Shown piece after piece: positions 24,677 through 29,639 of a DNA stretch of 47,261 bases. The translations under genes and the position numbers were made by a program. How positions within the stretch are numbered: the first letter of the stretch is position 1; every line of letters starts with the position of its first letter. Below the pieces are notes generated by a model that did no database searches, was not told where the DNA came from, and saw only the letters and a program-made list of their open reading frames with translations. Source of the DNA: an uncultured Bacteroidales bacterium (GTDB taxonomy: Bacteria > Bacteroidota > Bacteroidia > Bacteroidales > FEN-979); assembly GCA_903885595.1 (NCBI GenBank), contig CAISJJ010000217.1:1-47261 (forward strand), given 5' to 3'.

Positions 24677-25684
24677 ATGACCACACCATCAACCATGCAG
24701 GAAATTCTTTTCCAGTCAGTCAGGAATAAATTGGCACCTAATATATCCTTCGTGCACGATCTGTCTGAACTTCTTGGAATTAGCTACGACAGCGCTTATC
24801 GAAGGATACGTGGGGAAAAAGAATTATCGTTGGAAGAGTTGAAAACCATATGTCTCAATTATGAAATTTCAATTGATTCCCTCTTCAATTTCAAACACAA
24901 CCATGTTATATTCAATTCACTGGCCATTGGTGAGGATGGTTTTGATATTGAAAAATGGCTCCAGTCACTCCTGGTTGCCATAAAACGGATTCATGGAGCA
25001 AAAGAAAGGGAAATTATATATGCGGCTAAAGATATACCCGTCTTTTATTATTTCGAATTCCCGGAAATAGCTGCCTTTAAAATCTATTTCTGGAACAAAG
25101 CGCTGATTCCAACTAGTGGATACGAAGACAAAAAACTTTCGCTGGATGCTCCGGAAAACCTCTATGAAATTGGTCGTCAGTTGCTTACCTATTATATTAA
25201 AATCCCTACCATTGAGATTTGGAGCGAAGAGACAATATCAAGTATTCTCCGGCAAATTGAATATTGTTTTGTTTCCGGATTTTTTGAACGTATTGAAGAC
25301 GTTTTCAGGTTGTGTGGTGTTCTGGAATCGTGGCTACATCACGTGCAAAGTCAGGCCGAACATGGGTTTCAGTATATGCAGAACAGTCCTGCTGAAGGAA
25401 TTGAAAATAGTTACAAACTTTACCATAACGAAGTATTGGTGACTGATAATACAATCCTGGTGAAAACTGACGGACAGAAAACTTCCTTTAACACCTATAA
25501 TGTTATCAACCAGTTAATCACTACAAACCCTGTATTTTGCAACCAGGTGGAAAAATCTCTCCGCAACCTGATGCAGAAATCAACCATGATTAGTGGAACT
25601 TCTGCTAAAGAACGCTACAGGTTCTTCAATATCCTGCAGGAAAAGATTAAAATGCTTAGAAGTCGGATTGAACGAATGGGTTGA
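24677..25684 (+). CDS. helix-turn-helix regulator-like protein
   Basis: 335 residues. Residues 8-65 form an XRE-like helix-turn-helix (DLSELLGISYDSAYRRIRGEK, then LEELKTICLNYEISIDSLF). The remaining 270 residues are mostly helical with no enzyme motif and no signal peptide. The family is found in many Bacteroidota, usually annotated only as HTH-domain protein; the ligand and targets are not known. It lies 9 bp before the phosphodiesterase-fold lipoprotein gene, which it may control. An in-frame ATG at residue 7 is an alternative start. Confidence 0.7.
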   Translation: MTTPSTMQEILFQSVRNKLAPNISFVHDLSELLGISYDSAYRRIRGEKELSLEELKTICLNYEISIDSLFNFKHNHVIFNSLAIGEDGFDIEKWLQSLLVAIKRIHGAKEREIIYAAKDIPVFYYFEFPEIAAFKIYFWNKALIPTSGYEDKKLSLDAPENLYEIGRQLLTYYIKIPTIEIWSEETISSILRQIEYCFVSGFFERIEDVFRLCGVLESWLHHVQSQAEHGFQYMQNSPAEGIENSYKLYHNEVLVTDNTILVKTDGQKTSFNTYNVINQLITTNPVFCNQVEKSLRNLMQKSTMISGTSAKERYRFFNILQEKIKMLRSRIERMG

Positions 25685-25693
25685 GAAAGAAAA

Positions 25694-26842
25694 ATGATGG
25701 AAGACAAAAGAAGTGTGTTCTTGATTTTGTATTTTTCCCGCTACAGGCTATCGCTTTGGGTGAGTACCTTTTATTTTGTTTGTCTCCTCATATCTTCCTG
25801 TGAACCCATGGCGACAACCTTCGATGACACCGGGGAGGCATCATATTATTCGGCAAAGACCTATACTCCGGTAACAGATACCCCTTCTGTCATACGTGTT
25901 ATGACCTGGAATATCCGGTTTGGGGCCGGCAGGATTCTTTGGTTTGGCGATGCATGCGGCGAGCGGGTAGTTCTGACAGAAGAGGAAGTCTATAATTCCC
26001 TGCAGGCCATTGTTGATCAGATAAATAAAATCAAACCCGATATTCTTTTGCTCCAGGAGGTGGATATTAATTCAAAACGGTCATGTTATATCGATCAGCT
26101 GCAATGGATCCTTGACCATACCTGGTTCAATTATGCGGTTTGTGGTTCACAATGGAAAGCCCAGTTTATCCCAAGCGATGGGCTGGGCAGGATGGATGAA
26201 GAAAATGTCATCCTTTCGCGCTGGAAGATCAGTGATGCCCAAAGGATTCAACTTGTTTTACGTAATGACCAGGATAAACTTACACGCTATTTCTATGAAC
26301 GGTGCTGCTTGGTTACTGCCAGGATCGAAATTCCGGATTTTAAAAATTTTTATGCCGTCAATATACATGCCTCTGCTACTGCTACACTCGACATCAAACA
26401 ACAGCATATCACCCAGTTTAAAAACGAACTGGACCGGATAAACCAGAATGGTGGATATTTTGTGGCAGGTGGTGACCTGAACACTTTACCTCCCTCTTCT
26501 GACACCACCGATTACTGCCTGCAGGATAAGTGTTCGTGGGAATCATATCATAGTGCTGGCGATGACCCGATGCATAAGGAGGGCAGTGATTATTCTCCGG
26601 AGCAACATTTTCTCGATGCCCTGTACCAAACTTATCGTTGTGCTGTCTCCGACAGCCTTTACAAAAGCGATCAGTTTCACTTCTACACCCATACTACCCG
26701 CCAGGATCATTACTGGGACCGAACGCTCGACTACCTGTTTACAAACTACAAATGGGCAAATCATTCTGTCGTTGTCCACCAGGATGCCACAAAAGAATCA
26801 GATCATGCCCCGGTAAGCGTACTTTTTATTTTGCCCGAATAA
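25694..26842 (+). CDS. endonuclease/exonuclease/phosphatase-fold lipoprotein
   Basis: 382 residues with an N-terminal hydrophobic segment ending in a lipobox-like LISSC near residue 36. The rest is an endonuclease/exonuclease/phosphatase domain: the TWNIR motif with catalytic Asn, the metal-binding Glu in LLLQEVD, NIHASA, GGDLNTLP with the Asp-x-Asn pair, and the C-terminal SDHAPV with the catalytic Asp-His. It is probably a surface or periplasmic phosphodiesterase or nuclease; DNA, RNA, inositol phosphates and sphingomyelin are all possible substrates for this fold. It sits in a plus-strand group with the HTH gene upstream and a probable outer-membrane protein 11 bp downstream. Confidence 0.85.
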   Translation: MMEDKRSVFLILYFSRYRLSLWVSTFYFVCLLISSCEPMATTFDDTGEASYYSAKTYTPVTDTPSVIRVMTWNIRFGAGRILWFGDACGERVVLTEEEVYNSLQAIVDQINKIKPDILLLQEVDINSKRSCYIDQLQWILDHTWFNYAVCGSQWKAQFIPSDGLGRMDEENVILSRWKISDAQRIQLVLRNDQDKLTRYFYERCCLVTARIEIPDFKNFYAVNIHASATATLDIKQQHITQFKNELDRINQNGGYFVAGGDLNTLPPSSDTTDYCLQDKCSWESYHSAGDDPMHKEGSDYSPEQHFLDALYQTYRCAVSDSLYKSDQFHFYTHTTRQDHYWDRTLDYLFTNYKWANHSVVVHQDATKESDHAPVSVLFILPE

Positions 26843-27680: not shown

Positions 27681-28619
27681 TTAGAATTTTACAGCGAAGG
27701 CAACAAATGGGATACCGGTAAACAGAATTTCAAATATCTCTTTATTGTTGATAAATGCCAGATCGACACTCAATGTTTCACCGAAGAAGCGAAGGCCATA
27801 TGAAAAGACAGGAGTATACTTCTGCCCTGAATTGGTCGTATAGGGGATGATCCAGTTTTCGGTTACAAATGCAATTTTCCGGCCTAACCTTGCTGTACCG
27901 CAAAGGGTTATCATTGGATTCTTCTGAAATACAGCATCGGCTTCCTTTGATTTCGAGTAACCCCATCCCAATCCGCCAGTCAGATTATAATCAGGATTGC
28001 CATAGGTAATCACACCGTACATAGTGCCTATCTGGAGATTATTTCCGGCAATCATTGCATAGATAAATCCTCCACCTATTCTAAAATTATTTGCCACTTT
28101 AAAACCGATTTTGGGCGTTAAAAAAAAGCTGGGCAGAAACTCCCCCGCGGTGATTGAACCAATCGTTGATATGAGTTCAATTCCTCCTCCTATTGAAAAC
28201 CAGTTTGTTACCCCTACATTAAAGGAATTCAACACGAGTAAGGTATTCTGGTAATATCCTTCGCCCGTTTTCAGAGTGAAAGCAGATGGTGCAAAAAAAT
28301 ACCTCCCGGGCAATGGTGTCGGGAACCAGTATTTTCCTTTTTTCACTACAATGTAATCAACTTTTTCAACTTTCTTTATTTTACTGTAGGGAATCCTGAC
28401 GGGGCCCAGGTCTTCCGTAATCAATGTGAGCGTGTCATTCCTGTTTTCCTTAAGTTTCCCAAAATAGGTTGACCCCTCCCTGAACTTGACAACAATAAAA
28501 GAAGATGTATCATTTAAAGCCGATGGTGAATCTATTTTCTCCTGTGCTTTTGATTTCACTGAAATTGTCAGGAACAGGACAAACATCATGATTTTCAATA
28601 TTTTTAAAACCGTTTTCAT
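27681..28619 (-). CDS. hypothetical beta-barrel protein with small N-terminal beta domain
   Basis: 312 residues. A signal peptide (MKTVLKILKIMMFVLFLTIS, ending about KAQ) is followed by a compact beta domain near residues 40-88 with an Sm-like rhythm (FIVVKFREGSTYFGKL, DTLTLIT, VRIPYSKIKKVE). The rest is glycine-rich alternating strands, such as FSIGGGIELIS, FRIGGGFIYAMIAG and LTGGLGWGYS, ending in the aromatic FAVKF, the usual last strand of an outer-membrane barrel. Proteins with this plan are common in Bacteroidota but uncharacterised. The FolD-like gene lies 39 bp upstream on the same strand. Confidence 0.65.
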   Translation of the reverse strand: MKTVLKILKIMMFVLFLTISVKSKAQEKIDSPSALNDTSSFIVVKFREGSTYFGKLKENRNDTLTLITEDLGPVRIPYSKIKKVEKVDYIVVKKGKYWFPTPLPGRYFFAPSAFTLKTGEGYYQNTLLVLNSFNVGVTNWFSIGGGIELISTIGSITAGEFLPSFFLTPKIGFKVANNFRIGGGFIYAMIAGNNLQIGTMYGVITYGNPDYNLTGGLGWGYSKSKEADAVFQKNPMITLCGTARLGRKIAFVTENWIIPYTTNSGQKYTPVFSYGLRFFGETLSVDLAFINNKEIFEILFTGIPFVAFAVKF

Positions 28620-28658: not shown

Positions 28659-29588
28659 TCAAAAACCTGCAATGGTGTTTTTATAAGCAATGACGGTGTT
28701 TCTGAAAAGGATAGCCATCACAACTGTCATGAGACCCCCGGGAATTGGGAGAATGGCACTGGCGATATTGTTGACAGAGGCTACATTAACTCCACCCCTG
28801 ATGACCGGGACCATTTTGGCCGGATCGGTTTTTGACGGGACCTCTTTTACCAGGTTCGAATAAATGTCGATAATACAAACACCGGGCTTCAACCATTCTG
28901 GTTGAATATATTCAGGAAACTTGGTCACCACCACCAAAATATCGGCTTGCCTGCAATGCTCCACCAGGTTTTTCGTATCCTTGTTCACAAAGGTTACAGC
29001 ACAATCATTGGGTACAACCCTGGATGCGGCTGCCCGAACGATCATCTTTGTAAGCGTATTTGATAGAAATTCATCATCAAGCAAGAAAACCCACTCCTGA
29101 TCTTTATGTAGTATTACCTCCTCTTCTTTGAACATTTCGAACAGGGCCGTTGGCAAACACATAGGATACCTGCTTGTTTGAATATCAGGAACCATCGTGC
29201 CCATCACATTAACCGGGTGAAAACCTTCAACCTCTTTAGCAGGACTGATTCTGTTGACAATCCTTACAGGATTCAGGTGCTGGGGCAACGGCTGTAGAAG
29301 CACAACGGCATGAATTTCATCATTCGCGTTCAGTCTGTCAATGACCATAAATATATCCTCCTCTTTGGATTCATTAGCCAGGATCTCGGTGAAAACCCTG
29401 AATCCCATTGTCTGGGCCAGGTGTATATGCATCGGAATATTATATTTTGCGAGCGGAACACACATGAATCCCAGAAAAGCAATTCCCGGTGTTTCATGAT
29501 ACTTTTCCTGAAGTCTTTCAACCTCAGATTTAACCTCCGTAAAGATTTTATCCTTGACAAAATCACCCTTGATTATTTTTGTTTCCAT
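28659..29588 (-). CDS. FolD-like protein with degenerate active site
   Basis: 309 residues from ATG 29588, chosen because METKIIKGD matches the FolD start and the promoter leaves a 14-nt leader. It aligns end to end with methylenetetrahydrofolate dehydrogenase/cyclohydrolase: PGIAFLGF, IDRLNAND, KEVEGFHPVNV, TKNLVEHCRQADILVVVTKFPEYI, KPGVCIIDIY, ILPIPGG. The key residues are changed. In a gapless alignment with E. coli FolD from memory, catalytic Lys54 becomes His, Tyr50 becomes Asn (Tyr is one position earlier), Gln98 becomes Leu with Gln moved by one (LLQPLP), and Asp121 becomes Glu. The NADP-binding segment G.SxxVGxP is replaced by DDEFLSNTL, and TPVPGGVGPMT by LPIPGGLMT. The reading frame is intact, so this looks like a pseudoenzyme or a repurposed FolD. 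Confidence 0.8.
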   Translation of the reverse strand: METKIIKGDFVKDKIFTEVKSEVERLQEKYHETPGIAFLGFMCVPLAKYNIPMHIHLAQTMGFRVFTEILANESKEEDIFMVIDRLNANDEIHAVVLLQPLPQHLNPVRIVNRISPAKEVEGFHPVNVMGTMVPDIQTSRYPMCLPTALFEMFKEEEVILHKDQEWVFLLDDEFLSNTLTKMIVRAAASRVVPNDCAVTFVNKDTKNLVEHCRQADILVVVTKFPEYIQPEWLKPGVCIIDIYSNLVKEVPSKTDPAKMVPVIRGGVNVASVNNIASAILPIPGGLMTVVMAILFRNTVIAYKNTIAGF

Positions 29589-29608: not shown

Positions 29609-29639
29609 CAAAATTACCCAGGGGATTATGGGTATCAAA
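29609..29639 (-). promoter_or_regulatory. -33/-7 promoter of the FolD-like gene
   Basis: Read on the minus strand, TTTG (29636-29639), a 19-bp spacer and TAATTTTG (29609-29616) match the Bacteroidota promoter TTTG-N19-TAnnTTTG exactly. Transcription should start near 29602, 14 nt before the ATG at 29588, which also argues against a longer N-terminus from 29651. Confidence 0.75.

Follow-up and report, generated by a model that had tools for sequence, protein, structure and literature searches.

The window analysed here is a stretch of 47,261 nucleotides from an uncultured Bacteroidales bacterium (contig CAISJJ010000217.1 of assembly GCA_903885595.1). On its reverse strand, at positions 28659–29588, it carries a FolD-like coding sequence for a protein of 309 amino acids, with an ATG start, a predicted FolD fold, and remodelled catalytic and nicotinamide adenine dinucleotide phosphate (NADP) sites. 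The frame is open and intact over its whole length, as an earlier note made from the DNA letters had stated. A longer frame that opens with GTG is not the real start, because the methionine encoded by the ATG is common to 21 of the 22 aligned members of a clade of relatives; the remaining member (G022) matches from residue 21 only. The gene appears to be a conserved FolD paralogue whose original chemistry has very probably been lost, and its most persistent neighbour encodes an XRE/BetR-like regulator.

Homology to FolD extends along the full length of the protein, as the earlier note had proposed. Both Pfam domains of the family, PF00763 (61.2 bits) and PF02882 (80.6 bits), score above their cut-offs, and both are matched in all 22 relatives (E up to 0.1). 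The FolD models of NCBIfam are a different matter, since none reached its cut-off among the 25 listed of 30 matches, the best scoring 190.6 against 501 bits. In phmmer searches, the window protein aligns over nearly its entire length to solved FolD/MTHFD structures, with a gap-free match to human MTHFD2 over approximately the first 128 positions. Identity to the canonical FolDs listed is 24–34%. An AlphaFold2 model built from the 22-member alignment has a predicted local distance difference test score (pLDDT) of 85.3 and a predicted template modelling score (pTM) of 0.85. When this model was searched with Foldseek, all 50 matches listed were FolD or MTHFD proteins, with template modelling scores on the query of 0.66–0.80 and E. 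coli FolD as the best match (E 2.4e-24). The protein thus has the two Pfam domains and, by prediction, the fold that define bifunctional FolD.

The residues responsible for FolD chemistry were compared in an alignment of 34 canonical FolDs from Bacteroidales, four outgroup FolDs, and 22 relatives of the window protein, which replaces the earlier note's comparison with E. coli FolD. Key residues of human FolD follow the lists in the relevant passages of PMC3368264 and PMC3338484, and the human residue numbers were put onto the alignment via motifs. Six of the seven substrate and catalytic residues are replaced in the clade, and Gly273 alone is kept (22/22). The YxxxK catalytic pair of bifunctional FolD is missing: Tyr52 has become Asn in 19 members and Thr in three, and Lys56 is His in all 22. 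Equally missing are Gln100 and Asp125, with Leu and Glu, respectively, in every member, the latter being a conservative change. Leu101 is Gln throughout, and a Gln therefore stands one residue beyond the position of the lost one. Gly276 has been replaced by Met in all 22, which breaks the GGVGP motif, though its first two glycines are retained.

The NADP site has changed to a similar extent. Leu is found for Thr148, Phe for Ile176, Tyr for Gly237, and Ser for Ile238 in every member, and Val for Ala215 in 21 of 22. Within the GRSxxVG loop, the alignment of which may be one residue off, Arg173 has become Asp in 21 members and Asn in one, and Ser174 is Asp or Glu in all; either way, the window protein has no Gly, Arg, or Ser there before Ser176. 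The NADP-binding Arg, Ser, and Gly by which FolD is recognised (GRSxxVGxP and DVG) are not found. However, the site is altered rather than erased, because Thr216 remains Thr or Ser in all members and Ser197 is Lys in 18 of 22.

Across the 59 columns that are at least 95% conserved in the 38 canonical and outgroup FolDs, the clade retains the residue in 22, has switched to another fixed residue in 16, and is relaxed in 21. Among the switched columns are those of the catalytic Lys, the two Asp in KDVDG, the Gln, and, in the nucleotide site, Gly and Arg. Invariant within the clade are His54, Leu98, Gln99, Glu121, Leu145, Lys223, Tyr243, Ser244, Asn245, Arg264, and Met287. Also kept are the pterin-loop prolines (P100 and P102), G122, H124, and both Gly of PGG. 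The alignment agrees with the earlier note that the catalytic Lys/Tyr pair, the Gln of VQLPLP, the Asp of KDVDG, and the G.SxxVGxP nucleotide motif are all altered. The GGVGPMT motif, too, is altered, at Gly276, and its first two glycines are unchanged. Since the replacements are fixed among relatives, they are not sequencing errors.

The FolD-like gene is present in 18 of the 43 genomes of the window's family. In a sample of 393 genomes from the order there were 11 bearers, four in the window's family and seven in five other Bacteroidales families, giving 25 bearers from six families in all. At E ≤ 1e-45, samples of the phylum (395 genomes) and the class (395), which do not represent the whole groups, yielded the window's own genome only. 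No relative could be confirmed among viral contigs, and a phage origin was rejected. A plasmid origin was likewise rejected: of 271 plasmid records, the 20 listed reached at most 31.7% identity, and the named products were FolD or tetrahydrofolate dehydrogenase. Twenty-one members align end to end, and contig ends truncate two others (G371 and G316). In G242 (L100, 663–1490, reverse strand), the gene is in frame and approximately 28 residues shorter than that of the window; the copy in its sister genome, G326, is complete.

In a tree with canonical FolDs, the 22 clade members split off with a support of 100/100 on a stem of 3.93 changes per column, a result that carries a long-branch warning. 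The clade sharing the altered segments, for which the earlier note had proposed a search, therefore exists. The ratio of nonsynonymous to synonymous substitution rates (dN/dS, Nei–Gojobori) of the FolD-like gene is 0.050–0.096 in the seven of eight genome pairs where dS was computable. This is slightly higher than the 0.051–0.062 of canonical folD (five of eight pairs), and the values are rough, as several dS exceed 1. A canonical folD in which every motif is present lies on contig C68 of the window's genome, and this rules out the FolD-like gene as the sole FolD there, an outcome that the earlier note had named as damaging to its proposal. A canonical FolD was found in 24 of the 25 bearers, the exception being G250, a genome that is 92% complete. 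The gene is thus under purifying selection. Together, the conserved clade, the fixed replacements, and the low dN/dS support the earlier note's suggestion that the gene has been selected for a new role and is not decaying.

Further observations concern individual members. Contig SACF01000001.1 (L037) carries a clade member 74% identical to that of the window, and a more distant member, at L017, is 50% identical. At L094 (4522–5166 and 3482–4399, both on the reverse strand), a stretch of approximately 136 bases that opens the FolD-like gene, running from slightly ahead of the ATG to around codon 41, has a second copy with 85% identity. This copy sits at the start of a neighbouring lipoprotein-like gene, which consequently opens with a FolD-like N-terminus.

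An exact promoter of the Bacteroidetes type, TTTG-N19-TAATTTTG, lies at 29609–29639 on the reverse strand and begins 51 bases upstream of the ATG. Matches to TTTG-N17–21-TAnnTTTG occur within 150 bases upstream in seven of 22 orthologues (the window and six others), one of these matches being 141 bases away and the closest relative (L004) having no exact match. In 200 shuffles, the mean was 0.125 of 22 and the maximum was one. The promoter reported in the earlier note is thus real. It is also of an ordinary kind: TTTG and TAnnTTTG with a gap of approximately 19 bases are given in a passage of PMC7366714 as the sigma-ABfr consensus, the vegetative promoter of the phylum. It therefore marks expression and nothing unusual. 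A TTTGCGCAAA-like word, picked by eye as a candidate shared operator, was rejected. It is also enriched upstream of unrelated neighbour clusters, including aspS (whose upstream region partly overlaps that of the FolD-like gene), and so says nothing specific.

Immediately downstream of the FolD-like gene, and codirectional with it, is a gene for a protein of 312 amino acids (27681–28619, reverse strand). By eye, the protein has a signal-peptide-like start and a barrel-like C-terminal part, and it matches no Pfam family over cut-off. The two genes are likely to form an operon, because the gap between them is only 39 bases. Homologues of the downstream gene occur in five of the 25 neighbourhoods (one as a remnant of 114 amino acids). 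They are codirectional with the FolD-like gene in all five and upstream of it in three.

Three genes away from the FolD-like gene, on the forward strand (24677–25684), is a gene for an XRE/BetR-like helix-turn-helix (HTH) regulator of 335 amino acids, which matches BetR at 22.5 bits against a cut-off of 21.6. Between the two lies a gene for a protein of the endonuclease/exonuclease/phosphatase family (25694–26842, forward strand; PF03372, 68.6 bits). This gene is missing at the same place in the nearest relative (L059), and it is not thought to be part of a unit with the FolD-like gene. When the neighbourhoods of all 25 bearers were compared, the regulator was found near the FolD-like gene in 18, and no other neighbour turns up both in most loci and in more than one family. 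Counting open frames of at least 70 amino acids, the two genes are adjacent in 11 loci, separated by one gene in five, and three genes away in two (the window and L096). They are convergent in 11 loci, divergent in four (L071, L093, L094, and L099), and codirectional in three (L072, L096, and L100). These three arrangements occur over three families, with flanks that otherwise differ.

The regulators have an HTH of the Cro/C1 type, and BetR was matched in 17 of 17 (E up to 0.1). The family is widespread in the order, occurring in 55 of 393 genomes. A model of the regulator (pLDDT 82.1, pTM 0.69) gave no Foldseek match at E ≤ 0.001, and so no significant relative of solved structure beyond the HTH part. 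Its C-terminal part carries an invariant Y..A.D.P.F..F..PE...FK...W pattern. PADLOC returned no match for the FolD-like protein and two weak HTH matches for the regulator.

Where the regulator is found with no FolD-like gene beside it, other genes take the neighbouring place. In nine of 16 such neighbourhoods of the family, the regulator has a cluster c3 gene next to it or two genes further along (L102–L106, L108, L109, L111, and L113), sometimes in tandem. A c3 gene is also present at L118 of G016, a genome in which the FolD-like gene is on another contig. Most c3 proteins resemble lipoproteins, with a membrane stretch rich in glycine and a FISUMP-like C-terminus. Among 18 loci of wider regulator relatives, several of the neighbouring proteins, read by eye, resemble secreted or envelope proteins. 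These neighbours, together with the codirectional downstream gene, make an envelope-related circuit plausible, but no more. Elsewhere, matches to aspS in two genomes (L146, G006:C285:239695–241452; L147, G010:C21:16006–17763) each contain one internal TGA.

The best explanation for these findings is a FolD paralogue that has been neofunctionalised. Such a protein would have left NADP-dependent chemistry, with its folate cleft now serving a different ligand, and it may work in one circuit with the regulator. We place the probability of this reading as a whole a little below even, at roughly 0.47, and its parts differ in strength. Loss of FolD chemistry is very probable. That of methylenetetrahydrofolate dehydrogenase in particular is suggested because acidic or bulky residues (Asp171, Asp/Glu172, and Tyr243) occupy the dinucleotide site. 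The alignment to residues of known place indicates that the cleft may have been relined by the invariant residues listed above (His54 to Met287), which would then bind another small molecule. A working partnership with the XRE/BetR-like regulator is tentative, with the balance leaning somewhat against it. In its simplest form, the FolD-like protein would bind or process a ligand and the regulator would read its output; alternatively, the FolD-like gene could be a member of the regulator's regulon. A more specific version, in which the protein is the metabolite-binding arm of a transcription circuit, binding a folate- or pterin-like ligand and signalling to a regulator of envelope genes, is rather improbable.

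Several observations tell against neofunctionalisation in partnership with the regulator. Loss of Lys56 by itself proves little, as PMC9173628 argues that this residue of human FolD contributes nothing noticeable to catalysis of the dehydrogenase reaction. The case for lost chemistry therefore rests on the whole set of residues rather than on the Lys, and some one-carbon chemistry could remain possible on a FolD fold in which His has replaced Lys. The regulator is absent nearby in seven of 25 neighbourhoods, three of which (L062, L095, and L098) are less than 1.6 kb from a contig end. In these bearers, it lies approximately 11 kb away in G017 and on another contig in G002, G016, G020, and G250 (G020 has two copies, one with an internal stop). 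Two of the 11 bearers in the order sample (G371 and G392) lack it. In favour of a link, the regulator occurs in 35 of the 43 family genomes, in 18 of 18 bearers versus 17 of 25 non-bearers (Fisher p 0.013), and, in the order sample, in nine of 11 bearers versus 46 of 382 other genomes (p 5e-7); these tests ignore kinship and hence overstate the association, and the order count is biased because proteins encoded near the FolD-like gene were used to build the regulator profile. Against it, in the 17 family genomes with the regulator and no FolD-like gene, other genes are found beside it. Lastly, the search for a shared operator found none.

Co-divergence of the two proteins appears strong at first sight. 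Across ten genomes with both, pairwise distances of the FolD-like protein show a correlation of 0.94 with the regulator's, 0.32 with those of canonical FolD, and 0.64 with those of AspRS. Controlling for canonical FolD and AspRS leaves a partial correlation of 0.89, a value reached by none of 2000 permutations. Without G026 and G027, however, the three correlations are 0.86, 0.77, and 0.78, the regulator itself correlates with AspRS at 0.87, and the partial correlation is 0.65 (2 of 2000 permutations). The HTH protein adjacent to the FolD-like gene in G027 is just 33% identical to the window's, and with G027 included the correlation is 0.74 and the partial correlation 0.62 (66 of 2000). The strong contrast hangs on one genome, G026. 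Consequently, co-divergence was rejected as proof of partnership, and it offers weak support for shared inheritance.

The same figures bear on a first alternative, namely that the link with the regulator is one of place only, the locus being a site that collects genes, with neighbours travelling together. Without G026, the co-divergence of the pair is barely above that with AspRS, and in loci lacking the FolD-like gene the regulator has other genes as neighbours, which also suggests that the locus may simply collect genes. In addition, the segment 27556–29868, comprising the FolD-like gene, the downstream gene, and intergenic DNA, is 86.4% identical to the corresponding DNA of G007 (L059). Adjoining sequences are less similar (aspS 78%, regulator 82%), and canonical folD is saturated at silent sites in the comparison of these two genomes. 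This pattern suggests recent exchange of the segment between species, which would fit neighbours that move together. However, shared position does not readily account for convergent, divergent, and codirectional pairs in three families with otherwise different flanks. Nor does it explain why five bearers keep a regulator at a distance from the gene (G002, G016, G020, G250, and G017). We regard a link of place only as doubtful.

A second alternative retains catalysis and changes the substrate. The protein could be an enzyme that performs a non-redox reaction in the cleft by means of His54, Glu121, and Lys223, in which case the link with the regulator would be that of a regulated gene. These three residues and Arg264 are charged or polar and invariant in all 22 members, as would be expected of an active site, and linkage to a regulator suits a regulated enzyme equally well. 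On the other hand, no constant pathway gene lies alongside, the regulator being the sole neighbour that crosses families in most loci, and the surroundings hint at no substrate or product. We regard this possibility as unlikely.

Still less likely, and indeed improbable, is that the protein remains a one-carbon enzyme, a cyclohydrolase without dehydrogenase activity that supplies 10-formyltetrahydrofolate with His54 in place of Lys and the Gln shifted by one residue. The retained P100, P102, G122, H124, and both Gly of PGG are in keeping with such a role. Furthermore, no formate–tetrahydrofolate ligase scored over cut-off in any of the 43 family genomes, bearers and non-bearers alike, and the supply of 10-formyltetrahydrofolate therefore probably rests on FolD. 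Yet Gln100, Asp125, Tyr52, Lys56, and Gly276 are all replaced, and a canonical FolD is already present in 24 of 25 bearers. A protein of the FTCD_C family occurs in 38 of the 43 family genomes, among them both bearers and non-bearers, and neither formate–tetrahydrofolate ligase nor FTCD was seen to correlate with the gene across these genomes.

That the window's gene is a decaying or misassembled folD copy is refuted: the canonical copy in the same genome and two of 25 members that are incomplete although no contig end accounts for this (G022 and G242) would allow decay, but the gene is found in 25 genomes, with a start conserved in 21 of 22 members, clade matches free of internal stops in the family and order searches, and a dN/dS of 0.050–0.096.

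The clade has partial parallels among known proteins. It shares with FolD/MTHFD (PF00763 plus PF02882) the full-length two-domain fold, with both domains over cut-off, and differs from it in that six of seven substrate and catalytic residues, and most NADP residues, have been replaced by other fixed ones. According to passages in PMC9796130 and PMC6443876, the N-terminal FolD-like domain of vertebrate MTHFD1L has lost both dehydrogenase and cyclohydrolase activity through residue changes. The resemblance, which is one of description and not residue by residue, lies in a FolD-homologous domain that is inactive there and probably so here. Unlike MTHFD1L, which keeps an active synthetase function, the window protein is bacterial, stands alone at 309 amino acids without fusion to a formyltetrahydrofolate synthetase, and is encoded beside a regulator. 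Plant FolD1 and FolD2 and fungal MTD1, described in PMC11064299 as extra copies of the FolD family, are similar in being additional to a main copy.

The same source gives a single FolD copy for most bacteria and archaea. Its survey left out metagenomes and used one assembly per bacterial genus, and the word 'bacteroid' is absent from its main text. A stand-alone bacterial clade of FolD paralogues with a replaced site and a linked regulator was not found in the literature, in a weak search that matched FolD as 'fold'. Inactive FolD domains are already known from MTHFD1L; what is new here is the linkage with an XRE/BetR-like regulator, which the earlier note had not included.

These findings describe an active site that has been replaced, not merely lost, in a paralogue common to six Bacteroidales families. 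They call for caution in annotation, as reliance on Pfam alone labels such proteins FolD. The clade would show how a dehydrogenase fold gets reused. If the link with the regulator is functional, it would provide a route for sensing one-carbon or pterin status in environmental Bacteroidales.
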